Assembly: GCA_021805865.1 (NCBI GenBank)
Contig: JAJZDX010000001.1
Coordinates: forward strand, 213,588-277,587
Direction: 5' to 3'
Length of the DNA: 64,000 nucleotides
Source of the DNA: Pseudomonadota bacterium
GTDB lineage: Bacteria; Pseudomonadota; Gammaproteobacteria; Steroidobacterales; Steroidobacteraceae
In this document: positions 18,777 through 50,778 of the stretch, piece by piece
How positions within the stretch are numbered: position 1 is the stretch's first letter
How the letters are laid out: each line of letters opens with the position of its first letter
The notes under the pieces: generated by a model
What the model saw: the letters and a program-made list of their open reading frames with translations, nothing else
What the model was told of the DNA's origin: nothing
Database searches by the model: none
Made by a program: the position numbers and the translations under genes

Positions 18777-19847
18777 TTACGATTGTGGAACCGGCGTCGC
18801 CGGTGCCTCGTCGGACCGGTAGCACGCTTCGACCAACGCCATGGTGCGCCAGGCGTCTTCCACCGAAGTGCGCAGCACTTCGTCCTCGCCGCTCGCAAAG
18901 CGCTGGACGTTGGACATCGGGCCGATGAACGCGTCCGGAAACCATGCGCCTTCGAGCGGCACCGACTGCCACGGGCCGCCGCGCGGGGCGATCCATAGCT
19001 CATCGGGCTCGCCGCGAGGATAGTCGAGCAGCAGACCGAGCTTCATCAGCGCCGCCCCGCGTTCGCCCTCGATGCGAACAGTGGCATCCTGGAACCGCCG
19101 TCCGAAGTCATGATGATGGTTGATCGAGAGCGTCACGCGACGCTCCGGGCCGTAGTCGAGGATGGCGGAGGTGCGCGTTTGCGCGAGTGCGCTGCCCGGA
19201 TAATGATAAGTGCGGGCAAGGACACCGCGCGGCTCGCCGGCTAGCGCCCGGATGGTGTCCAGGTAATGAATGGAGTGCGAGGCGATCTCGACACGGGGAT
19301 TGGGGATGAGGTGGGGGAACAGCTCCCAGGGCGTGACGAGACTCAAGTGCACTTCGATATCGATGAGCCGGCCGAGCAGCCCGCGCTCCTGCGCGGCGGC
19401 GACGGCTTCCATCATGGGCGCGAAACGCAGCTGGAAGTTGACTGCCGCCGCGAAGCGCCGCTCGCGGCACACGGCGCGGATGTCGGTGGCCTGCGCGAGG
19501 TCGAGCCCAAGGGGCTTCTGGATCAGCACCGCGGCTGCGGGCGGCAGAGCGGTGAGAATGGCGCGATGCGCCACCGGCGGGGCTGCGATGTCGAAAACGC
19601 AGCCCTCGACGCCGGCCGCCTCCCCGAGGGACCGATACACGCGCTCGATGCTCCAGCGCTGCGCCGTGGCACGCGCCTTGTCGGCGTCGAGGTCGAAGAT
19701 CCCCGCCACCGCGAATCCGGCCTTGCGGTACGCCGGCAGGTGGGCATCGTTGACGATGCCGCCGGTGCCGATGATGACGATGGGCCGCGCGGCGCTCGGC
19801 AGAGGGTGCCGCTGGCGCAGGCCCGACGCACTCCACCCGGTGCTCAT
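18777..19847 (-). CDS. Gfo/Idh/MocA family sugar oxidoreductase
   Basis: NAD(P)-dependent dehydrogenase family acting on sugars and sugar acids. The 356-residue protein has a Rossmann domain (IVIIGTGGIVNDAHLPAYRK near residue 23), the family's EKP motif as QKPLG near residue 115, and a C-terminal alpha/beta substrate domain with ASHSIHYLDTIRAL. It overlaps the upstream gene by 4 bases, so it is translationally coupled to the solute-binding-like protein. In D-apiose catabolism the first oxidation is done by a member of this family, which makes it a candidate for the first step in this locus; that link is inference. Confidence 0.85.
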   Translation of the reverse strand: MSTGWSASGLRQRHPLPSAARPIVIIGTGGIVNDAHLPAYRKAGFAVAGIFDLDADKARATAQRWSIERVYRSLGEAAGVEGCVFDIAAPPVAHRAILTALPPAAAVLIQKPLGLDLAQATDIRAVCRERRFAAAVNFQLRFAPMMEAVAAAQERGLLGRLIDIEVHLSLVTPWELFPHLIPNPRVEIASHSIHYLDTIRALAGEPRGVLARTYHYPGSALAQTRTSAILDYGPERRVTLSINHHHDFGRRFQDATVRIEGERGAALMKLGLLLDYPRGEPDELWIAPRGGPWQSVPLEGAWFPDAFIGPMSNVQRFASGEDEVLRTSVEDAWRTMALVEACYRSDEAPATPVPQS

Positions 19848-21034
19848 CGGATGAGCGCCTGGAGGCGGGTTTGCGCCTCATCCAACAGCAGACGGCTCGA
19901 CTCCTCGGTGTCGAGTGCACGCGCGAGCAGCCCGTCGATCACCCGCGAGACTTCGGCGAGCCGCGGATGCAGGGGCAGTTCCCGGGCGTGCTCGTGCAGC
20001 GCTTCGAGCCTGTGATAGAAGGGGATCAACCGGTTGACCTCCTCGTCCTCCCAGGTGGAGCGGCGCACGCCGATGGCGCCCTCGAGGGTGGTCAGTTTGT
20101 CCATGGGAGCGCTCGCCACGTGGCGCAGGAATGCCCAGGCCAGGTCCTTCTGGCGCGATCCGGAGGCGAGAGCGATGACCCAGAAGACATTCAACGAAAC
20201 GCTGCGCCCGCCGGGTCCCATCGGCAGCGGCGCGACCTCCACACAGCCTTTGACGCGACTCTCGGCCCAGGACTCCGCGAGCGCGGCGAATCCGAACCAA
20301 TTGGCCATCAGCGCCACCTTCCCGGCGCAGAACAGCAGGCCCGCCTTGACGCTGTCGAGAGCTCGTGCTCCGGGCGCGATCGCCGCCTCGTCGCGCGCGA
20401 GGAGGCGCAGAAAGTCGAGCGCGCTCTCGGCTTCGCGCGTGCGCAGTTGCGGCCGCGCTCCCGGGCCGAACGGCTCCCCGCCGCGCGACCAGACATGGAT
20501 GCAAAAATCGTAAAAGCCGTTGTGACCGTCGGGGTACAGCGCGAGGGTCGTCCCGTAGAGCTCCCGTCCGGGGGCATGCAGCCGCCGCGCGGTGGCGTGG
20601 AAGCCCTCCCAGGTGGTCGGCACGGGCAGACCGGCCGCATGCAGCAGGTCCTTGCGGTAGATGAGGCACTCCGGACCGTCGTGATACGGCAGCCCCCAGA
20701 ATCCGCCGGCGAAATCGGCAGGCCGCATCAGCGAACGGCTCCAGGCCGCCGGAAAATCGGTGATCGGCGCCCGGGCGAGATACGGGCGCAGGTTCTCGAT
20801 CAGACCGCCGGATTGCGCTTCGGCGAGCCAGTCGGTCGAGAGGAAGGCGAGATCGAGCGATCCGTCGCGCAGAGCGCCCTGATCGAACAATCGCGCGTGC
20901 AGGTCGTTCAGGTCCAGCGCTTCGATCTCAAGACTGAGTGCCTGGCCGGTGGCGTGCGCGAAATCCGCGAATTGCCGGCGGATGGCGCTCTCGAACGGGT
21001 CAAACCTGCGGATCGCTATGCGGACGACTCGCAC
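19844..21034 (-). CDS. Family 1 solute-binding-like protein without signal peptide
   Basis: Looks like a carbohydrate ABC transporter substrate-binding protein (396 residues): YHDGPECLIYRKDLLHAAGLPVPTTWEGF, then WSRGGEPF and an LAWAFLRHVAS segment are typical of the SBP_bac_1 fold. The N-terminus MRVVRIAIRRFDPFES has no hydrophobic signal and runs straight into the fold. The GTG start at 21034 has an AGGAGG Shine-Dalgarno inside the upstream IclR gene, which it overlaps by 35 bases. No MalF/MalG-type permease or MalK-type ATPase is nearby. It may be a cytoplasmic sensor or binding protein rather than a transporter part. Confidence 0.75.
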   Translation of the reverse strand: MRVVRIAIRRFDPFESAIRRQFADFAHATGQALSLEIEALDLNDLHARLFDQGALRDGSLDLAFLSTDWLAEAQSGGLIENLRPYLARAPITDFPAAWSRSLMRPADFAGGFWGLPYHDGPECLIYRKDLLHAAGLPVPTTWEGFHATARRLHAPGRELYGTTLALYPDGHNGFYDFCIHVWSRGGEPFGPGARPQLRTREAESALDFLRLLARDEAAIAPGARALDSVKAGLLFCAGKVALMANWFGFAALAESWAESRVKGCVEVAPLPMGPGGRSVSLNVFWVIALASGSRQKDLAWAFLRHVASAPMDKLTTLEGAIGVRRSTWEDEEVNRLIPFYHRLEALHEHARELPLHPRLAEVSRVIDGLLARALDTEESSRLLLDEAQTRLQALIR

Positions 21035-27168: not shown

Positions 27169-28305
27169 ATGCGCAAAGATCGGCCGATCCTGCTGCGAGG
27201 CATGACCTGGGACCATCCGCGCGGCTACGGGCCGCTCGTGGCGTGCTCGGCGGCCTGGCGCGAGCGCACCGGTGTGAGGATCGAGTGGGAGCGGCGCTCG
27301 CTGCAGGATTTCGAGTCCTTTCCGGTCGCTGAGCTGGCCGCCCGCTACGACCTCATCGTCATCGATCATCCGCACATCGGACAGGTGACGCGCGAAGAGT
27401 GCCTCGCGCCGCTCGATGAGGGGGTCGATGCGCAAGAGCCGGCGTACGGGGCGGTCGGGGCCTCGCTCTCGAGCTACCGGTGGGGCGATCGGCTCTGGGC
27501 GCTGCCCATCGACGCGGCGGCACAGGTTCTGGCCTGGCGCCCGGATCGCCTGTCCGCCCCCCCGGCGGACTGGTCGGCCGTGCTCGAGATGGCGGCCGGC
27601 GGCGCAGTACGGTGCCCGCTGCGCCCGCCGCACAATCTGATGGCGCTGTTCACGCTGTGCGGATTGGCCGCTCACCCGCCGCGCACGCACGGAGAGGAGC
27701 TTTTCGAGCCGGCGGCGGGCTGCGAGGCCTATGAGCGCTTGCGCGAGCTCGCCGCACGCATCGATCCGCGCTGCGGCGAGCAGGATCCGATCGCGGTGCT
27801 CGAGGAGATGGCGGCGCCGGACTCGAGAGCGGCCTGTGCGCCGCTCATCTACGGCTATGTGAGTTATTCCAGGGCGGATGCCCGGGGCGCCCGCGTGGCT
27901 TTCGCCGATCTGGCGCCTCTTGCGCGCGGCGGCTCGTGCGCCGGCTCGGCGCTCGGCGGCACCGGCATCGCCGTCTCGGCGCACGGTACGGAGCGCGCCG
28001 CCGCGACCGCTTTCGCACACTGGGTGGCCGGCGCCGAGGCCCAGTGCGGACCGTATCTCGCCGGCGGCGGCCAGGCGGCGCACTGCGCCGCCTGGGACGA
28101 CGCGCGTGCGAACGAGGTCTCGCTCGGCTTCTTCCGCAGCACCCGCGCGACGCTGGAGGGCGCCTGGGTGCGTCCGCGTCAAGCGGGTTACATGACATTT
28201 CAGGATGCAGCCGCCGAGCGCCTCACACAGGCGCTCGCGGCGCACGAGTCGGGCGTCGCGGTCATTGCGGCGCTCAATCGACTGTATCTGGAGGTACTGC
28301 CATGA
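27169..28305 (+). CDS. Solute-binding-like protein without signal peptide
   Basis: A 378-residue protein distantly like ABC transporter solute-binding proteins. It begins MRKDRPILLRGMTWDHPRGYGP, with no signal peptide, and has YDLIVIDHPHIGQVT near residue 60 and a GDRLWALPIDAAAQVLAWRPD segment typical of the fold. It differs clearly from the one at 19844. It is first in the plus-strand operon and overlaps the GH127-like gene by 4 bases (ATGA). With no permease of its own, it may be a cytoplasmic sensor or effector-binding protein. Function unknown. Confidence 0.72.
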   Translation: MRKDRPILLRGMTWDHPRGYGPLVACSAAWRERTGVRIEWERRSLQDFESFPVAELAARYDLIVIDHPHIGQVTREECLAPLDEGVDAQEPAYGAVGASLSSYRWGDRLWALPIDAAAQVLAWRPDRLSAPPADWSAVLEMAAGGAVRCPLRPPHNLMALFTLCGLAAHPPRTHGEELFEPAAGCEAYERLRELAARIDPRCGEQDPIAVLEEMAAPDSRAACAPLIYGYVSYSRADARGARVAFADLAPLARGGSCAGSALGGTGIAVSAHGTERAAATAFAHWVAGAEAQCGPYLAGGGQAAHCAAWDDARANEVSLGFFRSTRATLEGAWVRPRQAGYMTFQDAAAERLTQALAAHESGVAVIAALNRLYLEVLP

Positions 28306-30137
28306 GCCGACCCACCACACGCCGGAAATTCCTGCAATCAGCCGCAACGGCGGCCGGGCTCGGAGTCATCGGCGCGCGCGCGCGCTGGGCCCGCGCTCGC
28401 CCGGCGATGGCGCGCAACGATTCTGCAGGTCCGCTCATCGAGCGACTGCGGGAGTTCGATTACGCGGACGTGGCCCTCACGGGCGGCCCGCTCAAGACGC
28501 AGTACGACTTCATTCACGCTCACTATCTGGCGCTCGACAACGACCGGCTGCTGCAGGTCTACCGCGAGCACGCCGGACTGGCGGCACCGGGCATCGACAT
28601 GGGCGGCTGGTACGGCAAGGGCGGGTTCATTCCCGGCCATGCGCTCGGGCAATACGTCTCCGGCATCGCGCGTTTCGGCCGCTGCACCGGCGACCAAGCG
28701 TGCCGGTCGAAGGTACACGAGCTGGTGCGCGGCTTCGGCAAGACGCTCGACGCCAACCCGGTCCCGTACGCCGGCGAGGGCGCCTGGAAAGTCTGGCCGG
28801 CCTACGTGCTCGACAAACACATGATCGGGCTGATCGATGCCTACCGTCTGAGCGGCATGCGGGAGGCGCTCCCGTTGATCCCGCGCGTGATCCACGGCGC
28901 GCTGCCGTTCATCTCGCCGGTGAGCCGCGACCGGATCGGCGTCAAGAACCCGCCCTATGACGAAACCTACATCGTTTCGGAGAACCTGTTCACCGCGGCG
29001 CGCCTGACCGGCAAGCGAGGCGTGCGCGATCTGGCGGTGAAGTATCTGTTGAACAAACCTTACTTCGATCCGCTCTCCCGCGGCGAGAACGTACTGGCCG
29101 GCCGACAGGCCTACAGTCACGTCATGGCGCTCAGCTCGGCGGCCATGGCGTACCTCGAGCTCGGCGAGTCCCGTTACCGCGATGCGCTCGTCAACGGCTG
29201 GAAGTTCCTCGACGAGCAGAGCTACGCTACCGGCGGCTGGGGACCGAACGAGCTGCTGATCGCCTCGGGCACCGGGGCGCTGTACTCCAGCCTGGCCGGC
29301 ACCGTGAATCATTTCGAGACGCCGTGCGGCACCTACGCGACCATGAAGGCCGCCCGCTACCTGATGCGCTTCACGGGCGATGCGCGCTACGGCGATGGGC
29401 TCGAGCGCATCATGTGGAACGGGCTGATGGCGGTGAAGCCGCCGGACTCAAACGGCAACTCACCGTACTACTCGAGCTACCACCCGGACGGGAAGAAGGT
29501 GTTCTATCCTGAGAAGTGGCCGTGCTGCTCGGGCACTCTGGTGCAAGGCGTGGCCGATTACGTCCGCAATGTCTACTTCCATGCGCCGGGCGCGCTGTAC
29601 GTGAACCTGTTTGCGCCGTCGCGGGTGCGCTGGCGCACGGATGCGGGGGTCATCACGCTCACGCAGCACACCGACTACCCGATGGGCGGATCGGTGACGC
29701 TGCAGGTGGCGACAGCCGCGCCGGTGACGTTCGCGCTCGTGATCCGCATTCCCGGCTGGCTGCAGGCCGATGCTGAAATCCGCGTCAATGGCCGGCGAAC
29801 GACGGTCGCGGCCGAGCCGGGCACGTTCGCCGCGCTCAAGCGCACCTGGCGCGACGGCGACCGGGTGGAGTTGCACCTGCCGCAATCGTTGCGCACGCAG
29901 TCCATCGACCGCTCGCACCCCGGCACGGTGGCCCTGTTGCGCGGACCGGTCGTGTACGGCGCGCTGAATTTCGCCGGCCCCGCCACGCCCGTGCCGCGAC
30001 TCGATGTGCCCGGCCTGAGGCCGGTTGCCGGCGCGGGCGACACCTATCGGCAGATGGACCGTGGGCAGCAGATCCTGTTCGTGCCTTTCTACAAAGTTCA
30101 GAACGAGTCCTACAATGTCTACTTCGAACGGGCCTGA
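28302..30137 (+). CDS. GH127-like glycoside hydrolase with Tat-type signal
   Basis: Member of the GH127/GH146 superfamily (alpha/alpha barrel), whose characterised enzymes release beta-L-arabinofuranose or, in rhamnogalacturonan-II degraders, aceric acid. The 611-residue precursor begins MSRPTTRRKFLQSAATAAG, a twin-arginine signal. The metal/nucleophile site of GH127 appears conserved in kind: Glu339 and Cys342 (FETPC) plus Cys408-Cys409 (KWPCCSG), although Glu and Cys are one residue further apart than in the common ExC arrangement. It overlaps the upstream gene by 4 bases and the next by 23. Family confident; exact substrate not. Confidence 0.85.
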   Translation: MSRPTTRRKFLQSAATAAGLGVIGARARWARARPAMARNDSAGPLIERLREFDYADVALTGGPLKTQYDFIHAHYLALDNDRLLQVYREHAGLAAPGIDMGGWYGKGGFIPGHALGQYVSGIARFGRCTGDQACRSKVHELVRGFGKTLDANPVPYAGEGAWKVWPAYVLDKHMIGLIDAYRLSGMREALPLIPRVIHGALPFISPVSRDRIGVKNPPYDETYIVSENLFTAARLTGKRGVRDLAVKYLLNKPYFDPLSRGENVLAGRQAYSHVMALSSAAMAYLELGESRYRDALVNGWKFLDEQSYATGGWGPNELLIASGTGALYSSLAGTVNHFETPCGTYATMKAARYLMRFTGDARYGDGLERIMWNGLMAVKPPDSNGNSPYYSSYHPDGKKVFYPEKWPCCSGTLVQGVADYVRNVYFHAPGALYVNLFAPSRVRWRTDAGVITLTQHTDYPMGGSVTLQVATAAPVTFALVIRIPGWLQADAEIRVNGRRTTVAAEPGTFAALKRTWRDGDRVELHLPQSLRTQSIDRSHPGTVALLRGPVVYGALNFAGPATPVPRLDVPGLRPVAGAGDTYRQMDRGQQILFVPFYKVQNESYNVYFERA

Positions 30138-31401
30138 CAGTGCGCGCGTCCTGGCGCGCTACTGGATCGAAACCGCCCGTCCGCTGGAGGAAGCGGCGGC
30201 GCAGATGGCCGGCGAGCAGTCGACCGGCACGTTCGTGCGCGTCGCGGGCGAAACGGACGCGCTGCGCGAACACTTTGCCGCACGCATCGAGGCAATGACG
30301 CCGACGGGCGAGGTGGGCTCACCCTCGTTGCCCGGAGCCTGGCAGCCGCGGGGCGGGGCGGGCGTTTGGCGCGCCGCCGAGGTCACCCTGTCCTGGCCAC
30401 TGCACAATTTCGGACCCTCGCTGCCGAACCTGCTCGCCACCGTCGCCGGAAACCTCTGGGAGCTGAAGGCGTTCTCCGGCATGCGGCTGCTCGATCTGAC
30501 GCTGCCGCGGGAGTTTCTCTCGGCCTACCCCGGCCCCCGGTTCGGGGTGCCCGGAACACGCGCGGTGAGCGGCGTGCACGGCCGGCCGCTCATCGGCACA
30601 ATCATCAAGCCGAGCGTGGGCCTCTCGCCCGAAGCGACCGCCGCCCGGGTCGCGGAACTCGCCGCCGCCGGCGTGGACTTCATCAAGGATGACGAGCTGC
30701 AGGCGGACGGTCCGCTTTGCCCGTTCGAGGCGCGCCTCAGCGCGGTGATGCGCGTACTGCGCGCGCACGCCGAGCGCACCGGGCGGCGCATCCTTTACGC
30801 AGTCAACATCACCGGCGAGATCGATCAGATGCTGCGCCGCCACGAGCGTGTCGTCGCCGAAGGCGGCAACTGCATCATGGTGAGCCTGCACAGCATCGGC
30901 TTGCCGGCGCTCACGGCCCTGCGCGCCCAGTGCCAGGTGCCGATTCACGGCCACCGCAATGGCTGGGGCCTGCTCGGCCGCTCGCCGGCGATCGGCGTGA
31001 GCTTTCCGGCCTGGCAGAAGCTGTGGCGGCTTGCCGGCATCGATCACGTGCACGTCAATGGACTCGACAACAAGTTCTGCGAGAGCAATGAGTCGGTCAT
31101 CGCCTCGGCACGCGCGTGTCTCACGCCGATGTTCTCGCCCCCGGCTTCCGGCTGCGAGATCATGCCGGTGTTCTCGTCCGGCCAGACGGCGCTGCAGGCG
31201 CCGGGCACTTGGCAGGCGCTCGGCTCGGTGGATCTCATTCACGCCTGCGGCGGCGGCATCATCGGCCACCCGGGCGGCGCGACCGCCGGGGTGCGCAGCC
31301 TGCATCAGGCCTGGGAAGCGGCGGTCGCCGGCATCCCTCTCGCGCGCTACGCGCGCGAGCATCGTGAGCTCGCCGAGGCGATTGACGCCTTTGGCCGCTG
31401 A
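30115..31401 (+). CDS. RuBisCO-like protein (acid-sugar phosphate decarboxylase type)
   Basis: A form IV RuBisCO-like protein of 428 residues, not a carbon-fixing RuBisCO. RuBisCO active-site lysines and metal ligands are kept: K165 (IIKPSVGLS), K191-D193-E194 (FIKDDE), H278/H280 (IHGHRNG), K320 (LDNKF) and the phosphate-binding GGG (ACGGGIIGHPGG). The loop HGHRNGWG differs from true RuBisCO. Together with a DUF1537 kinase, such proteins act in D-apiose/apionate catabolism as 3-oxo-isoapionate-4-phosphate decarboxylase or transcarboxylase. The ATG at 30115 lies within the GH127-like gene; the kinase gene follows after 10 bases. Confidence 0.88.
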   Translation: MSTSNGPDSARVLARYWIETARPLEEAAAQMAGEQSTGTFVRVAGETDALREHFAARIEAMTPTGEVGSPSLPGAWQPRGGAGVWRAAEVTLSWPLHNFGPSLPNLLATVAGNLWELKAFSGMRLLDLTLPREFLSAYPGPRFGVPGTRAVSGVHGRPLIGTIIKPSVGLSPEATAARVAELAAAGVDFIKDDELQADGPLCPFEARLSAVMRVLRAHAERTGRRILYAVNITGEIDQMLRRHERVVAEGGNCIMVSLHSIGLPALTALRAQCQVPIHGHRNGWGLLGRSPAIGVSFPAWQKLWRLAGIDHVHVNGLDNKFCESNESVIASARACLTPMFSPPASGCEIMPVFSSGQTALQAPGTWQALGSVDLIHACGGGIIGHPGGATAGVRSLHQAWEAAVAGIPLARYAREHRELAEAIDAFGR

Positions 31402-31411
31402 GGACCATCCC

Positions 31412-32725
31412 GTGGACCGTCCTCTGTACGCGTATTACGGCGATGACTTCACCGGCTCGACCGACGTCCTCGAGGTGGTGGCGGCGGCCGGCGTGCGCAG
31501 CGTGCTGTTCATCGGGCCGCCGAGCGAGCGGCACGTGCGCCAGTTCTCCGACTGTCAGGCGATCGGCATCGCGGGCGACAGCCGCAGCCGCTCGCCGCAG
31601 TGGATGAGCGAGCACCTGCCGGCGCTTTTCACCCGGCTTGGGGCGTTCGGTGCGCCGATCGCGCACTACAAGACCTGCTCCACATTCGACAGCTCGCCGC
31701 AGGTCGGCTCGATCGGGCGTGCGCTTGAGATCGGGCGCGACACGCTGCCCGGCCCCTTCATTCCAATCGTGGTCGCCGCCCCGCACCTTGGCCGCTACGT
31801 GGCCTTCGGCAACCTGTTCGCAGCCGCCGGCGGGGTCGTGCACCGGATCGATCGCCACCCCACGATGCGGGCTCACCCGGTCACACCCATGCACGAGGCG
31901 GATGTGCGCCGTCACTTGGCCGCACAGACCGCGATGCGCATCGGGCTGATCGAGCTGCCGGCGCTGGCGCGCAGCGCCGCAGCCGAGGCGGTGGCCGACT
32001 GCGTCGCCGCCGGCGACGAGGCGGTGCTCTTCGACGGGGTGAGCGAGGCGGACCTCGAGCAGAGCGGTCGGGTGTTGTGGCGCAGTGCGAAGCGTCATGC
32101 GCTGTTTTGCGCCGGCAGCTCCGGACTTGCGCACGCGCTGCTGTCAGTCTGGCGGGACGCGGGACTGATTCCGGCCCGAAGCGAGAGGCAGCCGTGCGGC
32201 GAGCCCGTGGACACGCTGCTGGTGATGAGCGGCAGCTGCTCGCCCGTGACCGAGCGCCAGATCCAGGCCGCCCTGCGCACGGGCTATCACGGCATCGCGC
32301 TGGATCCCGCGCGCCTGCTCAGCGAGGCGGGCGGCGCGCAGGCAGGCGAGCGGCTGGTGCGTGAGGCGGTTGCCCGGTTGCGGGAGGGCCGCAGCACCGT
32401 TCTCTACAGCGCGCTCGGGCCGCTGGGCGGCGCCTCACCCGCCTCGGGCGAGGCGCTCGGCCGGCGGATGGGCGAGCTGCTTGCACGCATCCTCGCCACT
32501 GCGCCGGTGCCGCGCGTGCTGCTCGCCGGCGGCGATACCTCGAGCCACGCGGTCGCGCAGCTCGGTCTCTACGCCCTCACCTGGAAGGCCGGCCTGGAGC
32601 CGGGAGCACCGTTGTGCCGGGCGCATGCCGACGAGCGATCCGGTCTCGAGGGCTTAGAGCTCATCCTCAAGGGCGGCCAGGTGGGGAGCGAGGGATTTTT
32701 CGAGCGTGTCAGGCTCGGCCGTTAG
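31412..32725 (+). CDS. Four-carbon acid-sugar kinase family protein (DUF1537)
   Basis: ATP-dependent kinase of the DUF1537 family, whose members phosphorylate 3-oxo-tetronates or 3-oxo-isoapionate. The N-terminal substrate domain opens YYGDDFTGSTDV; the C-terminal nucleotide domain carries GGDTSSHAVAQLG and LKGGQVGSEGFF. The GTG at 31412 gives 437 residues; a TTG at 31391 is an alternative. It directly follows the RuBisCO-like gene, so its product is probably that enzyme's phosphorylated substrate. Its 3' end overlaps the convergent MFS gene by 72 bases. Confidence 0.9.
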   Translation: MDRPLYAYYGDDFTGSTDVLEVVAAAGVRSVLFIGPPSERHVRQFSDCQAIGIAGDSRSRSPQWMSEHLPALFTRLGAFGAPIAHYKTCSTFDSSPQVGSIGRALEIGRDTLPGPFIPIVVAAPHLGRYVAFGNLFAAAGGVVHRIDRHPTMRAHPVTPMHEADVRRHLAAQTAMRIGLIELPALARSAAAEAVADCVAAGDEAVLFDGVSEADLEQSGRVLWRSAKRHALFCAGSSGLAHALLSVWRDAGLIPARSERQPCGEPVDTLLVMSGSCSPVTERQIQAALRTGYHGIALDPARLLSEAGGAQAGERLVREAVARLREGRSTVLYSALGPLGGASPASGEALGRRMGELLARILATAPVPRVLLAGGDTSSHAVAQLGLYALTWKAGLEPGAPLCRAHADERSGLEGLELILKGGQVGSEGFFERVRLGR

Positions 32726-33952
32726 TCCGGCCGTGCAGTCGACCCGTGAGAAAACGACAGCCGCGATCAACACCATCAGCGCCACCGCCCGTACCGGCAG
32801 CTCGTAGTTGCCGGTGGCGCCGGCGATATAGCCGAAGGCGAGCGTGCAGAGAACCCCTCCGGCCTGACCGGCGGTGTTCATGACTCCGGTGGCCGCGCCG
32901 CCGTGGTTGCCGCCGATGCTCATGCACATGGCCCAGGAGGCCGGCAACATCAGATCCATGGTGGCGAATCCGGCGCTGGCAAGGATCACGATGGCCGCCC
33001 GGCCGGTGACCCAGCTCATGGCGAAGAGCAGCCCCGCGCCGACGATCAGACAGCCGGCGGTCATGATCCGCGTGGCGTTGCGCAGGCCGATCCTGGTCCC
33101 CAGGCGGTCGCAGACCGTGCCGCCGATGAGATTGCTGCCGATGCCGAGCAGAAACGGAAAGGCCGCATACACCCCCATCTGGCGCAGCGTGAAGTGCCCG
33201 GCATGCACCATCCAGGTGGGAAACCAGTTGAAGTAGAACCAGCTGCCGCAGCCATAGCAGCCGTAGGCGAGCACGATGAGCCACAGCTGACGCAGTCCGA
33301 GCAGCCGGCTCAGCGCCCCCTTACCGCCGTGCGCATCGCCGTGGCGCGGGCCGATTTCAGCCAGCTCCTCGGGACGAATTCCCGGCTGCTCGGCCGGGCG
33401 GTCGTGATACCACAGCCACCAGGCGAGAGCCCACACCGCACCGATGACGGCGAGCACCCAGAACACCACCCGCCAGCCGAAATGGATCGCGAGCGGCACC
33501 AGCAGCAGCGGCGCGAGCGCACCGCCGAGCCTGCTCGCGGCCCACACCGCTCCCTGGCCCCGGGCCCGCTCGCGTGCCGGCAGCCAGCGCCATAACACGC
33601 CGGAGGCGTTCGGATAAGCACCGGCCGAGCCGATGCCGAAGCAGAACCGCACGATCGCGAGCGGGATGAATCGTGTGCACGCCCCGGTGAGCGCCGTGAA
33701 GCCCGACCACCAGGCGGCGATGCGGGAAAGCTCGCGCCGCTGGCCATGGCGGTCCCCGAGCGCGCCGGAGGGAATCTCGAACAGGCCGTAGGCGATCACA
33801 TAAGCGCTGAGCACCCAGCCCCACTGCTCGGGGGTCAGGCCGAGATCGCGCTGAATGCGCGGTCCCAGCACCGAGATCGCCATCCGGTCGAGAAACGTGA
33901 TGACCGAGACGACGCTCAGCAGCCCGACGACGGCGTAGCGCTTCCTGGGCAC
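32654..33952 (-). CDS. MFS transporter (ACS-like sugar-acid family)
   Basis: A 432-residue, 12-segment major facilitator of the anion:cation symporter type, whose members import hexuronates, tartrate and similar acids. Motifs: FLDRMAISVLGPRIQRDLGLT near the N-terminus and GALGDRHGQRR between segments 2 and 3. The GTG start at 33952 abuts the racemase stop. It is the last gene of the minus-strand run that begins with rhmD. An acid such as lactate, rhamnonate or an aldonate is a likely cargo; not proven. Confidence 0.87.
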   Translation of the reverse strand: MPRKRYAVVGLLSVVSVITFLDRMAISVLGPRIQRDLGLTPEQWGWVLSAYVIAYGLFEIPSGALGDRHGQRRELSRIAAWWSGFTALTGACTRFIPLAIVRFCFGIGSAGAYPNASGVLWRWLPARERARGQGAVWAASRLGGALAPLLLVPLAIHFGWRVVFWVLAVIGAVWALAWWLWYHDRPAEQPGIRPEELAEIGPRHGDAHGGKGALSRLLGLRQLWLIVLAYGCYGCGSWFYFNWFPTWMVHAGHFTLRQMGVYAAFPFLLGIGSNLIGGTVCDRLGTRIGLRNATRIMTAGCLIVGAGLLFAMSWVTGRAAIVILASAGFATMDLMLPASWAMCMSIGGNHGGAATGVMNTAGQAGGVLCTLAFGYIAGATGNYELPVRAVALMVLIAAVVFSRVDCTAGLTAEPDTLEKSLAPHLAALEDEL

Positions 33953-34627
33953 TCAGCCGGCCCCGAGATCGAACACCTCGCGCACTTGACGCACCCCGGA
34001 CTCGGGGCTCGACAGCACCGGGGCCGGGACGGCGTCCGCCGGCAGCGCCGCGACGACCCGTGCCATGGACGCCTGCGCCAATACGATGACATCGACATCC
34101 CGCATCCGTCCGGTCAGCGCCTCGCTCACCAGACGATCGTGCGTGGCGGTATTGCCTGCGAGCACGGCCTCGAATGCGCCCTCGCACAGACATTCGACGA
34201 CCTCGACGGGACGGCCGGCCTCGAGCGCCGCGCTGCGCACCAGCGCCGAAGTCGGCTCGAGCGTGGTGCGCAGCGTCGCGAGCACTCCGATGCGCCGCCC
34301 CTGGCGCACCGCGGCGCGCGCCATGGGCGCATCCACCCGCAGCACGGGCTGGTCGTACAGCTGCCGGGCGACGTCCACGGCCGGGCCGATGGACGAGCAG
34401 GTCACGAGCACGCCGTCCGCGCCAGCCTCGAGTGCCGAGCCCGCCAGCGTAGCCAGTCGGCGCACCGTCGTCTTCTCCAGCCGCCCGGCGTGGATGGTGT
34501 TCTTGATGAGGCTTTCGTCGACGGCGTGGAAGATCTGCACCTCCGGCAGCCATTGCGCGCACAGCGAGGCGAACAACGGAGTCAGCACGGGCGAGGTGTG
34601 CAGCAGGGCAAGCGTACGTTGCGGCAT
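33953..34627 (-). CDS. Asp/Glu/hydantoin racemase family protein
   Basis: A 224-residue member of the Asp/Glu racemase superfamily. The two-cysteine mechanism is partly visible: one cysteine lies in VLVTCSSIGP (near residue 76), but the second half has QASMARVV where many members have C, so it may not be a classical two-base racemase. It starts one base after the GH78 stop and runs into the MFS gene. No amino-acid substrate is suggested by the sugar context; an aryl- or hydroxyacid decarboxylase/isomerase role is possible. Confidence 0.78.
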   Translation of the reverse strand: MPQRTLALLHTSPVLTPLFASLCAQWLPEVQIFHAVDESLIKNTIHAGRLEKTTVRRLATLAGSALEAGADGVLVTCSSIGPAVDVARQLYDQPVLRVDAPMARAAVRQGRRIGVLATLRTTLEPTSALVRSAALEAGRPVEVVECLCEGAFEAVLAGNTATHDRLVSEALTGRMRDVDVIVLAQASMARVVAALPADAVPAPVLSSPESGVRQVREVFDLGAG

Positions 34628-34628
34628 G

Positions 34629-37600
34629 TCAGTCTCTCGTCAACTCATAGGTTCCCGAGCCCAGCTCGGTGAGGAAGGCGCCGGACCCGCTGGCCGCGGT
34701 GCGCTCGAGGGCCGTGGTAAGCGGCCTGCCGTCGGCGCGCCATTCGGGCGGCCCGCCCGGCAAGTGCACTTCCGCGCGGCTGTTGGCCGGTACCTGCAGC
34801 CGCAACCGCCTGAGGCCGCGCGCATCGCCCTCGACCTCGGTCGCGATCCGCCCGAGGCAGGAGTCGTAATGCGCGCGCACGCGAGGAATGCGCGCGTCGA
34901 AGATCGGATCGATCCTGATGCGCCGGAACCCCGGTGCGGCTTCGGTGATGCCGCCGATGCGCCGGTACATGAACCCGACCACGGCGCCGAGCGCGTAGTG
35001 ATTGAAGGAGTTCATGGACTGATCAACGGCGTTGCCGTTCCACCGCTCCCACATCGTGGTCGCGCCGTGGTCGATCATGTAGCCCCAGGAGGGATATCCG
35101 GTCTGCAGCAGCAGCGTGACCGCGAGCCGCTCTTGCCCCGTGTCGGCGAGCGCATCGAGCAGGCAGGGGGTGCCGAGAAAGCCCGTGGAGAGCAGATTTC
35201 CCCGATGCTCGACGTTGGCCGCGAGTCGCGCGCCGGCGCTGCGGCGCAGCGTGGCCGGCACCAGACCGAAGCGCAGCGAGAGCGCGTAGCTCGTCTGGCT
35301 GCCGTTGCCCACGGTACCGTCGGGGCGCACGAACTCCCGGATGAAGGCCTGCTCGATGCATTGACGCATGCGCGCGTAGCGCTCGGCCTCGTCCTGGTGG
35401 CCGATGGCCCCGGCCATGTCCGCCATCAAGGACGCACAGCGGGCCCAATACGCCGTTGCCACCAGCATTTTCGGTGTGGTCGCCTCGGCGGGATCGGGCG
35501 CCACGTCCGGGTTGGTCGAGACGACCGACAGCCAGTCGCCGAGATCCAGGCCACGTCGGCGCCGCCAGAGAAAATCCGGATTCGCCTCGGCGACGTAATC
35601 GACCCAGCGCTGCATGTGCGGCCAGTTCTCTTCGATCACCGTCGTGTCACCGTACCGCCGATACAGCATCCAGGGCAGGATGACGCCCGCGTCGCTCCAG
35701 CCGGCAGTCACCAGCTCGGGGAAGGAGCGTGGCTGGGGCGTGACGATCGGAAAGGCGCCATCGGAGGTCTGACCGGCGCGTACCTCCAGCAGGAATCGGC
35801 GGATGAAGGCATCGACGTCCATGTTGAAGGCGGCGGCGTCCAGAAACACCTGAATGTCGCCCATCCAGCCCATGCGCTCGTCGCGCTGGGGACAGTCGGT
35901 CGGCACGCCGAAGAAGTTCGAGCGCTGGCTCCACAACGCGTTGTGCCAGATCCGCTGCGCGATCGGCTGCTCGAGCTCGAGCGCGCCGGTCTCGGCGGCG
36001 TCGGTGTGCACCACCACGCCTTCAATCGATTCGCGGGTGGGAACGCCTGGGAAGCCGGTAATCTCGACGTAACGAAAGCCGTGATAGGTGAAGTGCGGCT
36101 CGTAAGTCTCGCCGTGCGGCTCGCCACGGAGCGTGTAGTGGTCCGTGGCGCGCGCGGCGCGCAGATTGGAGGTGTTGATGTTGCCGTTGGGGTAGAGAAT
36201 TTCGGCATGCCGCAGGCGCACCGTCGTGCCGGCCGGCCCCTGCACGCGCAGCCGGCACCAGCCGGCGAAATTCTGCCCCAAGTCGCACACATGGACACCG
36301 GGGCGGGGCTGGGTGATCGTTCGCACCGCCACGGTCTGCAATGCGCGGATGGGCGGATCGACCTGCGCCACGAGCCGCTCGCGTGGCCTCGCGCCGATCG
36401 CGGCCACCTGCCAGGCGCTATCGTCATAGCCCGGCTCATCCCAGCCGTGCCGCTCGAGGCGCGCGTCGTAGTCCTCGCCGTTGTAGATCTCAGAGGAGAG
36501 GATCATGGAGTTGGACAGCCGCCACTCGGAGTCGGTGACCACGACATCACGGTTGCCGTCGGTGTACTCGAGCACCAGCTGGGCGAGAAAACGCCGTGGG
36601 CTGTCGGCGAGGGAGTAGCGCTCGTCCATCCAGCTGAAGGCTGAGGCGTACCACCCGTCGCCGATCAACGCCCCGAGGGCGTTGCGACCGGGACGCAGCA
36701 GGTCTGTCGCGTCGTAGCACTGATAGAGCACATGGTCGCCGGCCACGGTGATTTCCGGTGACAACCGTGCGCTGCCGAGCCGTTGGCCGTTGATGTGCGG
36801 CTCGTAGGCGCCGAGCGCCGTCGCGTACAGCCTGGCGCGCGCCAGCGGCTTGGCGACCGTGAACTCCCGGCGGGCGAACATCGCGGGACGCGGCGGCCTG
36901 GGATCGCACGGCGGAGCGGTGGCGGCGGGCCGCGCGTACGGCCACGTGCTGTCATCGAAATCCAACGCCGTCCAGCCGGCCGGGGCGGTGCGCGAGGTAC
37001 GCCAATTCGGCCCGCTGGTGAATCGCCCGATCGTTCCGTCCGTGTGCCAGATCTTGACGATGGCGGCCAGTGCCCCGCCCGTGCCCGGCATGAAGGTGCC
37101 GGGATCGGCCCGACCACTCACGCCGATGAGATGGGCCCCGGGTGTCACCGGCAGCGCGATGCGCTGCATCGATCCCCAGGGGCGCTCTGCGGGCAGCTCT
37201 ACGGGTCGGCCGTCGATCCACACCCCGAGCAGGTCGTCCTTGGCGGACAGCCACAGCTGCGCCTGGCGCACGCCGGCGGGCAGGGTGATGCGGTAGCGAA
37301 ACTGCTGCGGCTCGGGCGCGAGGGCCGGCGCATCACTCCAAATCCAATGAATGCCGACCGTGCGATCTGCGCGCTCGTCCGCGTCCTCGATGGCGAGCCA
37401 CTCGGCCTGCCAATCGGCGGGCTGCAACAGTCCCATCTCGAACCAGGCGGGCTCGCTGGGCGGCGACGGACGATCCTCGGCGTCCCAGAGCTGCACGCGC
37501 CACCACACACGTTGCCCAGAGCGCAGTGTCGCTCCGCCGTAGGGGACTTCGAAACAGCGGTCCGAGCGGACCCGCCCGCTGTCCCAGAGGTCGGCATCGC

Positions 37601-37886
37601 CCGCCTCGAGGCGCTCGCGGCTCGAAGCGGCGCTGATGCGATAGGCGCTCTGCGCGGCGCCGCGCGCGCGGCTCGCGCACGCCCAGGACAATCGCGGCTG
37701 CAAGACTTCGAGGCCGAAGGGCTGCTCGATGTACTCGGCACGCGGCCGGATGACCCGAAGCGCTTGCGCTTCGGGCGCCGCGGCGCCCCCTTCGGCCCCC
37801 TGCGCGCGCGCCGGCCGCAGCAGTATCGGTGCGGCGGCGAGCAGCCCCGTGCCGCACAGCATGCGACGCCGGTTGATCCTGGCCAT
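34629..37886 (-). CDS. GH78 alpha-L-rhamnosidase, Tat-type signal
   Basis: Exported enzyme that removes terminal alpha-L-rhamnose. The start at 37886 (MARINRRRMLCGTGLLAAAP) gives a twin-arginine-like signal and 1085 residues. N-terminal beta-sandwich domains, including the LRPRLSWA-type opening (here LQPRLSWACAS), precede the alpha/alpha catalytic barrel with DCPQRDERMGWMGD at about residue 664 and the late GATTMWERWNG segment. It sits in the rhamnose operon between the SGNH esterase and racemase genes. Substrate position and aglycone are unknown. Confidence 0.92.
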   Translation of the reverse strand: MARINRRRMLCGTGLLAAAPILLRPARAQGAEGGAAAPEAQALRVIRPRAEYIEQPFGLEVLQPRLSWACASRARGAAQSAYRISAASSRERLEAGDADLWDSGRVRSDRCFEVPYGGATLRSGQRVWWRVQLWDAEDRPSPPSEPAWFEMGLLQPADWQAEWLAIEDADERADRTVGIHWIWSDAPALAPEPQQFRYRITLPAGVRQAQLWLSAKDDLLGVWIDGRPVELPAERPWGSMQRIALPVTPGAHLIGVSGRADPGTFMPGTGGALAAIVKIWHTDGTIGRFTSGPNWRTSRTAPAGWTALDFDDSTWPYARPAATAPPCDPRPPRPAMFARREFTVAKPLARARLYATALGAYEPHINGQRLGSARLSPEITVAGDHVLYQCYDATDLLRPGRNALGALIGDGWYASAFSWMDERYSLADSPRRFLAQLVLEYTDGNRDVVVTDSEWRLSNSMILSSEIYNGEDYDARLERHGWDEPGYDDSAWQVAAIGARPRERLVAQVDPPIRALQTVAVRTITQPRPGVHVCDLGQNFAGWCRLRVQGPAGTTVRLRHAEILYPNGNINTSNLRAARATDHYTLRGEPHGETYEPHFTYHGFRYVEITGFPGVPTRESIEGVVVHTDAAETGALELEQPIAQRIWHNALWSQRSNFFGVPTDCPQRDERMGWMGDIQVFLDAAAFNMDVDAFIRRFLLEVRAGQTSDGAFPIVTPQPRSFPELVTAGWSDAGVILPWMLYRRYGDTTVIEENWPHMQRWVDYVAEANPDFLWRRRRGLDLGDWLSVVSTNPDVAPDPAEATTPKMLVATAYWARCASLMADMAGAIGHQDEAERYARMRQCIEQAFIREFVRPDGTVGNGSQTSYALSLRFGLVPATLRRSAGARLAANVEHRGNLLSTGFLGTPCLLDALADTGQERLAVTLLLQTGYPSWGYMIDHGATTMWERWNGNAVDQSMNSFNHYALGAVVGFMYRRIGGITEAAPGFRRIRIDPIFDARIPRVRAHYDSCLGRIATEVEGDARGLRRLRLQVPANSRAEVHLPGGPPEWRADGRPLTTALERTAASGSGAFLTELGSGTYELTRD

Positions 37887-37897
37887 CACGGCGTCCC

Positions 37898-39166
37898 TCA
37901 GCGGTGCGGGTGGGCGGCCGCGGCGCGCGCCAGCGACCTGCCCGGCGCAAACAACTCCTTGTATACGGTCTCGGCCATGAGGTGATATCCGGCATCGTTC
38001 GGGTGCAGATCGTCGCCGCACTGGAGCGCACGGAGATAGTGATGCGGATGCCGCGGATCACGCAGTGCGCCGTCGAAGTGGATCACGCCGTCGAAGCCGT
38101 GACCGCGGCGGATCCAGGCGTTGACTTGCTCGCGCACCTTCTCGCCCGCGGGGTGCTCGTAGATGGCCCCGAGGTACGGCGTGAGCGTGCCCAGGTAGAT
38201 TTTGATGCCGCGCGCATGTGCCTGCCGGATCAGATCGCGGTAAGCACCGATGATGGCCGAGGCCGGCAGCGGCCCGGTGTCGCCGCTCGGATCGTAGGCC
38301 CAGCCGATGTCGTTGATCCCCTCGAGCAGCACGATGGCGCGCACGCCCGGAATGTCGAGCGCATCGCGCCGGAAGCGCGACAGCGCCTTCGGCCCCGCAC
38401 CGTTGTGCAGCAGGCGATTGCCGCTGATGCCGGAGTTGATCACGACCCAGCGGCGGTCCGCGGCGTGCGCCGCAAGCAGGCGCGCCAGTTGCTCTGGGTA
38501 GTCGAGGTGCATGCCGGGGGTCGAGCAGAAGCCCTCGGTGATGGAATCGCCGAAGGCGACCAGCACCGGGCGCGGATGGGCGGCATACACTTCAACGCCG
38601 CTCGCCAGCCCCGGCGCCTGCGGCCGGCCGCCGAGCGGCCAGACCGCTTCGGTCACATGATTGCCCGGGGGCGAGACCCACAGGTGCTTCAGGTGGCCGG
38701 CCGGTGTGGCGCCGGAGGGGTAATACACGGAGATCGCGAGGTTCTCGAACCGGTGGACTCTCATCTCGAGCGGGTCGCTCACCCACGCCTTGCCGATCGG
38801 AATGACTCCGCCTCGCCTGCCGTCGAAGGTCAGCACGTGGACCGGACCCAGCAGCACGCCGTTCGGCGAGGAGGCGGCGACGGTCACTTCGCCGAATCTC
38901 ACCCGCGAGAGCCCGAGCTCGTTGGTCAGGCGCACGCGCACGCGGCTGCCGCCGGTCTCGAGCCGCACCACTTGGCGCACCGACTGATGGGTGAACGTAC
39001 GTTGCTGGTTGCACCCCCACGCCGCCGTGGTCGGGAACGGCGGAGAATACCAGGCTTCGACCCAGTGAGCCGCTGCGGCCGCGGCCGATGCCGCCGGCGC
39101 GCAAACGCACGCGGCCAGTACGGCCGCAACCCCCATGGCGCTGCGAGTGAAGCGCCGGGCGCTCAT
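37898..39166 (-). CDS. Exported SGNH/GDSL-family esterase
   Basis: A 422-residue hydrolase with a Sec signal (MSARRFTRSAMGVAAVLAAC...ASA). An N-terminal beta-rich domain of about 180 residues precedes the catalytic domain with the four SGNH blocks: VAFGDSITEG, INSGISGNRLL, EGINDIG and HPNDAGY. It overlaps the rhaT stop by 4 bases, so it is coupled to rhamnose uptake. Removing acetyl groups from rhamnose- or galacturonate-rich glycans is a reasonable role, given acetylated rhamnogalacturonan; that is inference. Confidence 0.88.
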   Translation of the reverse strand: MSARRFTRSAMGVAAVLAACVCAPAASAAAAAAHWVEAWYSPPFPTTAAWGCNQQRTFTHQSVRQVVRLETGGSRVRVRLTNELGLSRVRFGEVTVAASSPNGVLLGPVHVLTFDGRRGGVIPIGKAWVSDPLEMRVHRFENLAISVYYPSGATPAGHLKHLWVSPPGNHVTEAVWPLGGRPQAPGLASGVEVYAAHPRPVLVAFGDSITEGFCSTPGMHLDYPEQLARLLAAHAADRRWVVINSGISGNRLLHNGAGPKALSRFRRDALDIPGVRAIVLLEGINDIGWAYDPSGDTGPLPASAIIGAYRDLIRQAHARGIKIYLGTLTPYLGAIYEHPAGEKVREQVNAWIRRGHGFDGVIHFDGALRDPRHPHHYLRALQCGDDLHPNDAGYHLMAETVYKELFAPGRSLARAAAAHPHR

Positions 39167-40301: not shown

Positions 40302-41204
40302 TCAGATCCGGTAGATTCTCTCGGCAGTGGCGGCAAACAGATCGGCGCGCTCGGCGAGGCTCGCGCCGGCGAGCAAATCGGCGTAGGCCGCGTAGAACTG
40401 CCCGAACGTGCCGAACAGCCGGTCCACCGGAAAGTTGCTGGCGAGCATCGTGCGCGCCGCGCCGAAGATCTCGAGCGTCTCGAGCACGAAGGAGCGCAGC
40501 GACTCCACACTCCAGCGCCAGTCGAGCATGGCGAGGCCGGAGATCTTGACCGCGACGTTCGGTTGCGCTGCGAGCAGCCGCATGCCGCCGCGCCACGCCG
40601 CGAGTCCGTCCCGATCCTTGTCCACCGGCATGCCGGTGTGGTTGAGGATCAGCGAAGTCTCGGGATGACGGGCGGCGAGGCGGGCCGCCGCGCTCATCTG
40701 ACCCGGATAGATCTGCAGATCGAAGGACAGGCCGTGGCTCGCAAGCAGCGCGAAGCCCGCGTGCCAAGCCTCGTCGTGGAGCAGGTCGCGCGGCGTGTAG
40801 GACTTGGCCGGATCCGGGTGCCAGTTGAGGATCTGGCGGATGCCGCGCACGTTGCGATGCGCGGCGTGGCGCTCGAGCAGCGCCGCGGCGTCGGGCTTCT
40901 CGAGCTGCGCGTGGGCGACGATGGCCTGCGGGTAGCCGCGTGCGTCGGCGGTCGCTTGCAGCCAGCGGGTCTCGGCCAGCGCGTCGGCGGGGTTGGCGCC
41001 GGCCTCTATGTGGACGATCTTGGCCGGATGCACACCGCCCTGCGCGGCATCGCGCAGATAATCATCGAGCAGGTAGTCGCGCGCGATGGGCGTCACGTCA
41101 CCAGTGATGCCCACGGGCAGGGGCGGCGTGAGCCACGGATAGCGCAGGTGCTGCAGGTCCCACAGGTGCATGTGGGAGTCGACGAGGACCCGCTGCCCGC
41201 TCAT
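40302..41204 (-). CDS. Amidohydrolase-family lactonase (probable L-rhamnono-1,4-lactonase)
   Basis: Metal-dependent hydrolase of the amidohydrolase_2 family, 300 residues, starting MSGQRVLVDSHMHLWD with the HxH metal motif. The start at 41204 has a GGAG Shine-Dalgarno 7 bases upstream; a GTG at 41216 does not. NWHPDP near residue 130, LNHTGMPVDKD near residue 190 and ASNFPVDRLF near residue 262 match sugar lactonases of L-fucose and L-rhamnose pathways. It would open L-rhamnonolactone made by RhaDH (56831-57592). Confidence 0.88.
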   Translation of the reverse strand: MSGQRVLVDSHMHLWDLQHLRYPWLTPPLPVGITGDVTPIARDYLLDDYLRDAAQGGVHPAKIVHIEAGANPADALAETRWLQATADARGYPQAIVAHAQLEKPDAAALLERHAAHRNVRGIRQILNWHPDPAKSYTPRDLLHDEAWHAGFALLASHGLSFDLQIYPGQMSAAARLAARHPETSLILNHTGMPVDKDRDGLAAWRGGMRLLAAQPNVAVKISGLAMLDWRWSVESLRSFVLETLEIFGAARTMLASNFPVDRLFGTFGQFYAAYADLLAGASLAERADLFAATAERIYRI

Positions 41205-41286
41205 ATCGATCTCCACACACGCAGGGGCGGCCGCGCGGGGCTCGACCAGGGTCTCAGGGTCGGATTGATCCGCGCCATGGCCGGCA

Positions 41287-42036
41287 TCAGTACGTCGTTC
41301 GCCCGCCGGAGATGTCGAACGTTGCCGCCGTGGAGAAGGAGCACTCTTCGCTCGCCAGCCAGCACACCAGCGCGGCCACCTCCTCGACCTCCCCGAGCCG
41401 GCCCATGGGGATTTTCGAGCGCATGTAGTCGATCTGGCTTTGCGGCAGCTGCTCGAGAATCGGGCTCTTGAATGTCGCCGGCGTCACGCAGTTGACGCGC
41501 ACGCCGGTCTGCGCGAGCTCCTTGCCGAGCGACTTGGTGAGGCCGATGACCGCGGCCTTGGCGGCGGAATACGCCGATGCGTTCGGGTTGCCTTCCTTGC
41601 CCGCTACCGATGCGATGTTGACGATCCGTCCGTAGTCGCTCTTGAGCATGTGCGGCACGACGGCGCGGCACGAGTTGAACACACCGTGCAGATCGACGTC
41701 GATGACCCGCCGCCACTCTAGCGGCGGATACGCCCAGAGCGTGGCGGTCGGACCGGTGATGCCGGCGCTCGCGATGAGCACGTCGATCCGCCCGAAGGCG
41801 GCAAAGGCGCGCTCGGCCGCGCGTGCCACCTGCTCGGCATCCGCCACATCGACCCTGGCGAGTTCCGCGCCGGGGATGGCCTGCCCGGCCGCGCTCAAGG
41901 CCTTCTCGTCCCAATCCCACAGGCAGACCCTGCCGCCCTCGGCGGTGATGCGGCTCGCCGCCTCACGCCCGACGCCGGAGCCGCCGCCCGTGATGATCGC
42001 GACCCGATGCTCGAATCGGCCGGAATACACTGTCAT
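41287..42036 (-). CDS. SDR oxidoreductase, probable L-2-keto-3-deoxyrhamnonate 4-dehydrogenase
   Basis: Short-chain dehydrogenase of 249 residues; the ATG at 42036 has a GGGAG Shine-Dalgarno. Cofactor motif TGGGSGVGR, ASAG structural motif, catalytic SVAGKEGN and SAYSAAK. The end FDISGGRTTY is typical of SDRs encoded with FAH hydrolases in deoxy-sugar-acid clusters. It lies between the lactonase and FAH genes, which fits oxidation of L-2-keto-3-deoxyrhamnonate to the 2,4-diketo acid that FAH then cleaves. The alternative, rhamnose 1-dehydrogenase, is less likely because a better match exists at 56831. Confidence 0.86.
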   Translation of the reverse strand: MTVYSGRFEHRVAIITGGGSGVGREAASRITAEGGRVCLWDWDEKALSAAGQAIPGAELARVDVADAEQVARAAERAFAAFGRIDVLIASAGITGPTATLWAYPPLEWRRVIDVDLHGVFNSCRAVVPHMLKSDYGRIVNIASVAGKEGNPNASAYSAAKAAVIGLTKSLGKELAQTGVRVNCVTPATFKSPILEQLPQSQIDYMRSKIPMGRLGEVEEVAALVCWLASEECSFSTAATFDISGGRTTY

Positions 42037-42049
42037 GTTTTCGCTCCCC

Positions 42050-42904: not shown

Positions 42905-42961
42905 GGCGTATTGACGGGTCTCTTGCGGACTGGATGATCAGGGGAAGTGTCGGCGTTGGAG

Positions 42962-44140: not shown

Positions 44141-44229
44141 GGACGTCTTCGGGTCTCGAGTCTGGACGAACGGGACGATGCGTCGCGGCGGTTGCGGCCG
44201 CGGCTTCTGTCCCACATACTAATACGGGT

Positions 44230-50735: not shown

Positions 50736-50763
50736 CGGTCGCTTCCCAAAGAGATCCCCATGA

Positions 50764-50778
50764 ATCCCATATTGTGGT
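50764..50778. promoter_or_regulatory. Candidate operator between GH78 and GH42 genes
   Basis: The plus strand reads ATCCCATATTGTGGT in the 118-base divergent gap. It fits the pattern TCYCATWWTRTGR also seen at 44230 (minus strand) and 61711. It is 29 bases upstream of the GH78 start and 76 upstream of the GH42 start. A TATTAT element follows at about 50781. Inferred as a shared regulon site. Confidence 0.4.

Follow-up and report, generated by a model that had tools for sequence, protein, structure and literature searches.

We analysed a 64,000-nucleotide stretch of DNA (the window) from contig JAJZDX010000001.1 of a Steroidobacteraceae bacterium (Pseudomonadota), in which four adjacent plus-strand genes encode a solute-binding-protein-like (SBP-like) protein, a GH127-superfamily hydrolase, a RuBisCO-like protein (RLP) and a DUF1537 kinase. 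Comparison with related loci somewhat favours a route for the catabolism of aceric acid via the hydrolase, an isomerase, the kinase and the RLP, every reaction of which we infer. Aceric acid belongs to side chain B of rhamnogalacturonan II (RG-II). An earlier note on this DNA had suggested that a GH127-type enzyme supplies the kinase and the RLP with a branched sugar, aceric acid being a candidate. The comparison lends support to this idea, because curated aceric acid hydrolases lie beside the same RLP, kinase and a racemase-fold gene in two Chloroflexota and because enzymes to be expected for side chain B are encoded in the cluster that holds the window array, but the window GH127-like protein itself is not assignable to aceric acid by sequence, being only a distant relative of the aceric acid hydrolase BT1003.

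In the proposed route, the GH127-superfamily enzyme would release L-aceric acid (3-C-carboxy-5-deoxy-L-xylose) in the periplasm, and a major facilitator superfamily (MFS) transporter would import it. A racemase-fold protein with a single conserved cysteine would convert the aldose into the 2-ketose HOOC-C(OH)(CHOH-CH3)-CO-CH2OH, the DUF1537 kinase would phosphorylate the CH2OH adjoining the ketone, and decarboxylation of this beta-keto acid by the RLP would yield a 5-deoxypentulose 1-phosphate. An aldolase could then cleave that product to dihydroxyacetone phosphate and acetaldehyde. We reason that this ketose would differ from 3-oxo-isoapionate, HOOC-C(OH)(CH2OH)-CO-CH2OH, in the branch only, so that one isomerisation would give an analogue of the substrate of the kinase OiaK and, after phosphorylation, of the substrate of the RLP OiaX. 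OiaK and OiaX act in D-apiose/D-apionate catabolism (Carter et al. 2018, as cited in PMC6302742). Because no dehydrogenase or lactonase would be needed, the scheme fits the apiose genes missing from the window genome.

All four genes of the array were present in tandem, with the overlaps of 4 and 23 bases and the gap of 10 bases that had been described. The SBP-like protein (27169-28305, plus strand; 378 aa) belongs to the SBP_bac_8/1 families (PF13416, 2.1e-10), the hydrolase (28302-30137, plus; 611 aa) carries the GH127 catalytic and middle domains (PF07944, 8.3e-37; PF20736, 3e-27), the RLP (30115-31401, plus; 428 aa) matches RuBisCO_large, and the kinase (31412-32725, plus; 437 aa, GTG start) carries the DUF1537 kinase domains SBD_N and NBD_C. 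Pfam thus bore out the four families, and by eye we saw a Tat-like TRRKFLQ motif at the start of the hydrolase. The array continues on the minus strand with an MFS transporter (32654-33952), an Asp/Glu-racemase-like gene (33953-34627; PF01177) and a GH78 alpha-L-rhamnosidase (34629-38021; PF17389, 8.8e-120). The racemase-fold and MFS partners, as well as the missing apiose genes ApnL and ApnO, had been overlooked in the earlier note, and its gene set was incomplete in this respect.

The RLP and the kinase were closest to the apiose-type enzymes. The window RLP scored 441 bits against OiaX (NF042437), its nearest NCBIfam model, without reaching the cut-off of 700, and 200 and 165 bits against MtnW-type models, which rules out a methionine-salvage (MtnW) identity. 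Its kinase scored 473 bits against OiaK (NF042436, cut-off 700 not reached), also the nearest model, and 195 bits against the 3-oxo-tetronate kinase model, so neither protein sided with the methionine-salvage or tetronate-only clades that the earlier note had held against its own proposal. The claim that the active-site lysines are kept was right for K175, K201 and K334 (here K165, K191 and K320; we take these positions from the spinach numbering) and wrong for K177, which is Ser (S167) in the window RLP and Ser in 81 of the 83 aligned RLPs, the window RLP included. The catalytic residues of the OiaX-like group are conserved (K165, K191, D193, E194, H280, R281, H313 and K320), and the nearest solved chain is 3nwr. 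On these grounds we propose that the RLP is a decarboxylase of a phosphorylated beta-keto acid and that the DUF1537 protein is a kinase of a ketose acid. Position 230 of the RLP was also weighed as a change in the pocket that might accommodate a larger branch: of 41 RLPs from loci that have ApnO but no racemase-fold gene, 39 carry Phe there, and the RLPs of the window clade carry Ala, Val or Pro. Because module RLPs of Chloroflexota and Bacillota keep Phe or Tyr, we rejected that explanation, and the position is a clade mark and not proof.

To describe the neighbourhoods of the RLP, we used 81 loci, namely the window and the best 80 of 553 confirmed matches from a genome scan with three aligned RLPs, and counted neighbours within approximately 10 kb or less of flank. 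RLPs were grouped by connected components; Louvain clustering had split them. Three companions were assigned to the apiose system: an ApnL-like protein (c7; L071, 640 bits on NF049900, cut-off 750), a Gfo/Idh protein taken as ApsD (c6) and a protein that weakly matches ketol-acid reductoisomerase and prephenate dehydrogenase, taken as ApnO (c2), the last two names being inferred. The racemase-fold gene was found at 26 of the 81 loci. A GH127-clan gene accompanied it at 20 of these 26, compared with 2 of the 55 loci without it, and an MFS homologue at 21 of 26 compared with 1 of 55. Both exceptions with a GH127 gene and no racemase-fold gene nearby (L032 and L092) are cut near a contig end, and six racemase-fold loci had no GH127-clan match (L040, L044, L049, L051, L056 and L066). 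The GH127 profile had been trained on some of these proteins, including those of L074, L105 and L097, which match by construction; those of L109 and L092 were not used. The apiose genes had the opposite distribution: ApnO lay nearby at 3 of 26 racemase-fold loci versus 41 of the 55 others, ApnL and ApsD each at 0 of 26 versus 16 of 55, and, when loci were divided by the GH127 gene instead, ApnO within approximately 10 kb at 0 of 22 versus 44 of 59. Fisher values for these co-occurrences ignore ancestry and are not to be taken as probabilities.

Whole genomes were compared as well. Our panel of 42 comprised 27 genomes with the module (the window genome, L032-L050, L056, L066, L072, L074, L097, L105 and L109) and 15 apiose-type genomes picked from the 80 loci. 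At E<=1e-67, the racemase-fold profile matched all 27 module genomes and one of the 15 apiose genomes, and three further apiose genomes gave weaker matches between 4e-52 and 2e-26. ApnL gave 0 matches in the window genome in a search that was positive in 13 of the 15 apiose genomes and in 10 of the 27 module genomes; in a separate search with the same model, the control genomes gave none. For ApnO, nothing rose above noise in the window genome (best match, 22.5 bits), whereas all 15 apiose genomes matched at E<=1e-76; strong matches were found in 11 of the 27 module genomes. Both genes were missing from 16 of the 27, that is, from the window genome and 15 of the 26 others. The window genome also gave no DUF5060 match, and no ApsD-like dehydrogenase exceeded the threshold near the RLP within the window, where a Gfo/Idh gene (18777-19847) lies distant from it.

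The main evidence linking the module to aceric acid came from two Chloroflexota loci, L074 and L105, whose GH127 genes scored 1019 and 998 bits, respectively, on NF049879, the curated model for aceric acid hydrolases, and so exceeded its cut-off of 950. In a search of 50 of the 80 loci, this model was above its cut-off in two genomes, both through these two genes; a match in the Verrucomicrobia locus L107 fell just under it (942 bits) and lies away from the RLP. The L105 protein matched 5mqo with 775 bits (next best, 407), and 5mqo is BT_1003. BT1003 is described as an aceric acid hydrolase (PMC5698469, PMC10850190). The gene order is GH2, GH127, RLP, kinase and racemase-fold gene in L105, and GH127, racemase-fold gene, ABC binding protein, two permeases, RLP and kinase in L074. 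In Bacillota, L097 and L109 encode a GH127-clan protein without a Pfam match (L097:7529-9265 and L109:7479-9212) that adjoins the module and is followed by the racemase-fold gene, RLP and kinase. Across different phyla, the module is accompanied by GH127-clan proteins of three unlike groups.

The RLP tree, which was built by a quick method from 83 rows (including two from further genomes), placed the window with L032 and L033 (support 100), nested in a 21-row clade (99) of Acidobacteriota and Pseudomonadota. The racemase-fold gene stands beside the RLP in 19 of these rows, and L032 and L043 have it in the genome. Module loci also occur in Bacillota and in Chloroflexota; the Chloroflexota locus L074 groups as the sister of the apiose-type L110. 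The tree holds eight changes in all. From the sequences, this pattern looks like entry modules swapped onto a common kinase/RLP pair. We tentatively suggest that aceric acid and apiose, both branched sugars of RG-II, converge on one such pair, that aceric acid would enter through the one-cysteine isomerase, and that lineages may plug in one or both entry modules.

Several results weigh against the aceric acid route, in part or as a whole. The associations above share ancestry: an independent-pair sign test had 2-3 informative pairs and p-values of 0.25-1, with low power. When NF049879 was searched in a sample of 400 Chloroflexota genomes, it passed in two, G392 (which is L105) and G586, and the G586 hydrolase (961 bits) had no RLP, kinase or racemase-fold match within 8-10 kb on each side. 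Seven other stretches around lower-scoring relatives had no RLP, kinase or racemase-fold match either, and the link between hydrolase and module is therefore not universal. A GH137-like gene, the marker of side chain B in the window, was not detected in the genomes of L074 and L105.

The window hydrolase itself is also an obstacle. It passes the PF07944 gathering threshold (127.5 bits, cut-off 24.9), with E317 (acid/base), E339, C342, C408 and C409 as candidate catalytic residues, and its three cysteines are invariant in set A3. However, it reached 95 of the 950 bits required by NF049879, which rules out a BT1003-type identity, and its structural model (mean pLDDT 79, moderate confidence) was nearest to the GH146 beta-L-arabinofuranosidases 8qf8/5opj (23% identity; BT_1003, 17%). 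It could therefore be an ordinary beta-L-arabinofuranosidase of an RG-II locus that is merely co-located with the kinase and the RLP, all the more as RG-II holds several arabinofuranosyl residues (PMC12282258). We regard this explanation as unlikely: the module is found with three dissimilar GH127-clan groups across phyla, the GH137-like gene could already handle the terminal arabinose of chain B, and the window hydrolase is the sole PF07944 match in its genome. Because the hydrolase is distant from BT1003 and nearest in fold to GH146, we rate its own release of aceric acid at slightly below an even chance, the aceric acid route slightly above one, and the isomerase assignment discussed below lower than either.

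Apiose genes in some relatives raise a second alternative, in which the window pair is a divergent OiaK/OiaX that acts on 3-oxo-isoapionate derived from apiose, likewise a branched sugar of RG-II, with unrelated enzymes performing the upstream steps. OiaX and OiaK are the nearest models, and ApnL and ApnO lie on the racemase-fold contig, approximately 20-35 kb away, in six close relatives (L034, L041, L042, L047, L048 and L050), so that the same kinase/RLP pair probably also serves apiose there; in the fetched stretches of five of the six, no second RLP or kinase was seen. A DUF5060 protein lies near ApnL/ApnO in two of five fetched relatives. The array at L066:8758-15681 consists of MFS, RLP, kinase, ApnO-like, DUF5060/Collagen_bind_2 and racemase-fold genes, and apparently combines entry genes for apiose and aceric acid, with ApnO and the DUF5060 protein beside the module. 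For the window, we consider this alternative quite unlikely because its genome is without an ApnL, ApnO or DUF5060 match, because the racemase-fold gene is not known to take part in the apiose route, and because curated aceric acid hydrolases stand beside the module at two loci.

The racemase-fold protein is the proposed isomerase of the aceric acid route. Its structural model (mean pLDDT 95) shows the racemase fold, with racemases as structural neighbours, and C77 is invariant; the site of the second cysteine reads LAQxSMAR in 18 of 18 aligned proteins, so C77 alone is conserved of the two cysteines of an Asp/Glu racemase. Our guess is that a single-base proton shuttle would suit an isomerase, and we tentatively assign the protein as an aldose-ketose isomerase. 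To our knowledge, such an activity has not been described in the Asp/Glu-racemase fold, and it is about as plausible that the protein is an epimerase or a downstream enzyme and that another isomerase makes the ketose, as its structural neighbours would suggest. On the other hand, the runs of L105 and L109 consist of hydrolase, RLP, kinase, transport and racemase-fold genes, and the racemase-fold protein is the enzyme without another role in them; there is no other obvious candidate, although the remaining genes were not searched for isomerases. The adjacent MFS protein, our proposed importer, is nearest to the galactonate (acid sugar) type (TIGR00893, 214 bits, cut-off 395), which fits the import of an acidic monosaccharide.

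For the last step of the aceric acid route, a single Aldolase_II match was found in the window genome, immediately following a gene that scored 409 bits on the mtnA model, over the cut-off of 279. This aldolase came closest to the models for L-fuculose-phosphate aldolase (212 bits, cut-off 264) and then ribulose-1-phosphate aldolase (178 bits, cut-off 300), and its stereochemistry may not fit, which is a further point on the negative side. Sought with this protein, aldolases gave three distant matches (L101, L103 and L111), none of them in a module locus. Pairs of mtnA and an aldolase are used for the salvage of 5-deoxypentulose phosphates, and the pair of the window genome (L116:392-2154; G000:C41) resembles such a salvage pair.

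To the right of the array, the window encodes further enzymes expected for side chain B. A GH137-like protein (57707-58846, minus strand) has as its best match 5mt2/5mui (3.6e-26 over residues 63-378), a PDB chain that is labelled Beta-galactosidase and that we take to be the GH137 domain of BT0996. BT0996 carries GH2 and GH137, and GH137 is described as the first enzyme cutting RG-II side chain B (PMC9843283); PMC12282258 lists among its references Vidal et al. 2000, whose title names an aceric acid-containing side chain. At E<=1e-70, the GH137-like protein was found in 19 of the 27 module genomes and in none of the 15 apiose genomes, three of which gave weaker matches near 1e-18 to 1e-22. 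In addition, we found a TonB receptor, two GH42 genes (50794-52965, PF02449 4.1e-108; 52821-55073, PF02449 1.9e-111; both plus), a GH29 alpha-L-fucosidase (55114-56820, plus; PF01120 5.9e-98) and a GH78-type rhamnosidase-like protein (47808-51119, minus; PF17389 2.5e-18; 3cih 3.7e-46), the true start of which is probably further in because at its upstream end it runs into the GH42 gene that begins at 50794. Minus-strand genes at 40302-44215 encode a lactonase-like protein, an SDR, a didehydro-deoxy-rhamnonate hydrolase-like protein and an L-rhamnonate dehydratase (NCBIfam and Pfam), presumably a non-phosphorylating L-rhamnose route; the dehydratase passed the cut-off of 393 with 738 bits, and the hydrolase (487 bits, cut-off 500) and the lactonase (111 bits, cut-off 400) stayed below theirs. 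Judging from these gene families, we propose that the array is part of a gene cluster for side chain B of RG-II.

Homologues of the SBP-like gene that opens the array were found only in L032 and L033 (77 and 75% identical) among 85 sequences (80 loci, four further stretches and the window), and no signal peptide was seen on its product by eye (no predictor was run). A second SBP-like protein without a visible signal peptide (19844-21034), likewise with homologues among the loci only in L032 and L033, flanks, together with the first, a CoA-transferase III/MaoC pair and a ribose-type ABC transporter. Elsewhere in the window, a putative glucoamylase-family protein (14475-16655; PF10091) lies beside lactate-dehydrogenase-like, SDR and Gfo/Idh genes. 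A 754-aa protein at L123:4425-6689, of a family that recurs in sphingomonad loci, had no Pfam or PDB sequence match.

In the open-access literature that we searched, which leaves out most subscription journals, no catabolism of aceric acid beyond the hydrolase was found. If the aceric acid route is correct, it would add a new substrate to the RuBisCO-like family, possibly a new reaction to the Asp/Glu racemase fold and possibly a new acerate-releasing group to the GH127 clan. It would also provide a marker by which RG-II consumers among environmental bacteria could be recognised from their genomes, and would account for the occurrence of one RLP/kinase pair both with apiose genes and in their absence.

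Parts of the module resemble known systems. The RG-II system of B. thetaiotaomicron (BT1003 and the GH137 of BT0996) would share with the window an extracytoplasmic attack on side chain B by a GH127-clan hydrolase and a GH137-like protein, but the passages describing it that we drew on cover hydrolases and include no RLP/kinase route for the freed aceric acid. GH146/GH127 beta-L-arabinofuranosidases (5opj and HypBA1) have the same fold and Cys/Glu catalytic set, and the window hydrolase is approximately 23% and 16% identical to them. The GH127 alpha-1,3-(3,6-anhydro)-D-galactosidases of carrageenan degradation likewise stand beside catabolic genes and an MFS transporter for the odd sugar that is freed (PMC5698469), but the sugar and the downstream enzymes are different. 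With the Asp/Glu/hydantoin racemase superfamily, the window protein shares the fold and the first cysteine, in TCSS, whereas LAQxSM stands in place of the second catalytic cysteine. The apiose/apionate system uses homologous genes, for a DUF1537 kinase and an RLP whose substrate is a branched beta-keto acid in phosphorylated form. In contrast to that system, none of ApsD, ApnL and ApnO lies near the window array, the window genome gives no match to ApnL or ApnO, and the module adds a constant racemase-fold protein, an acid-type MFS transporter and a GH127-clan hydrolase.

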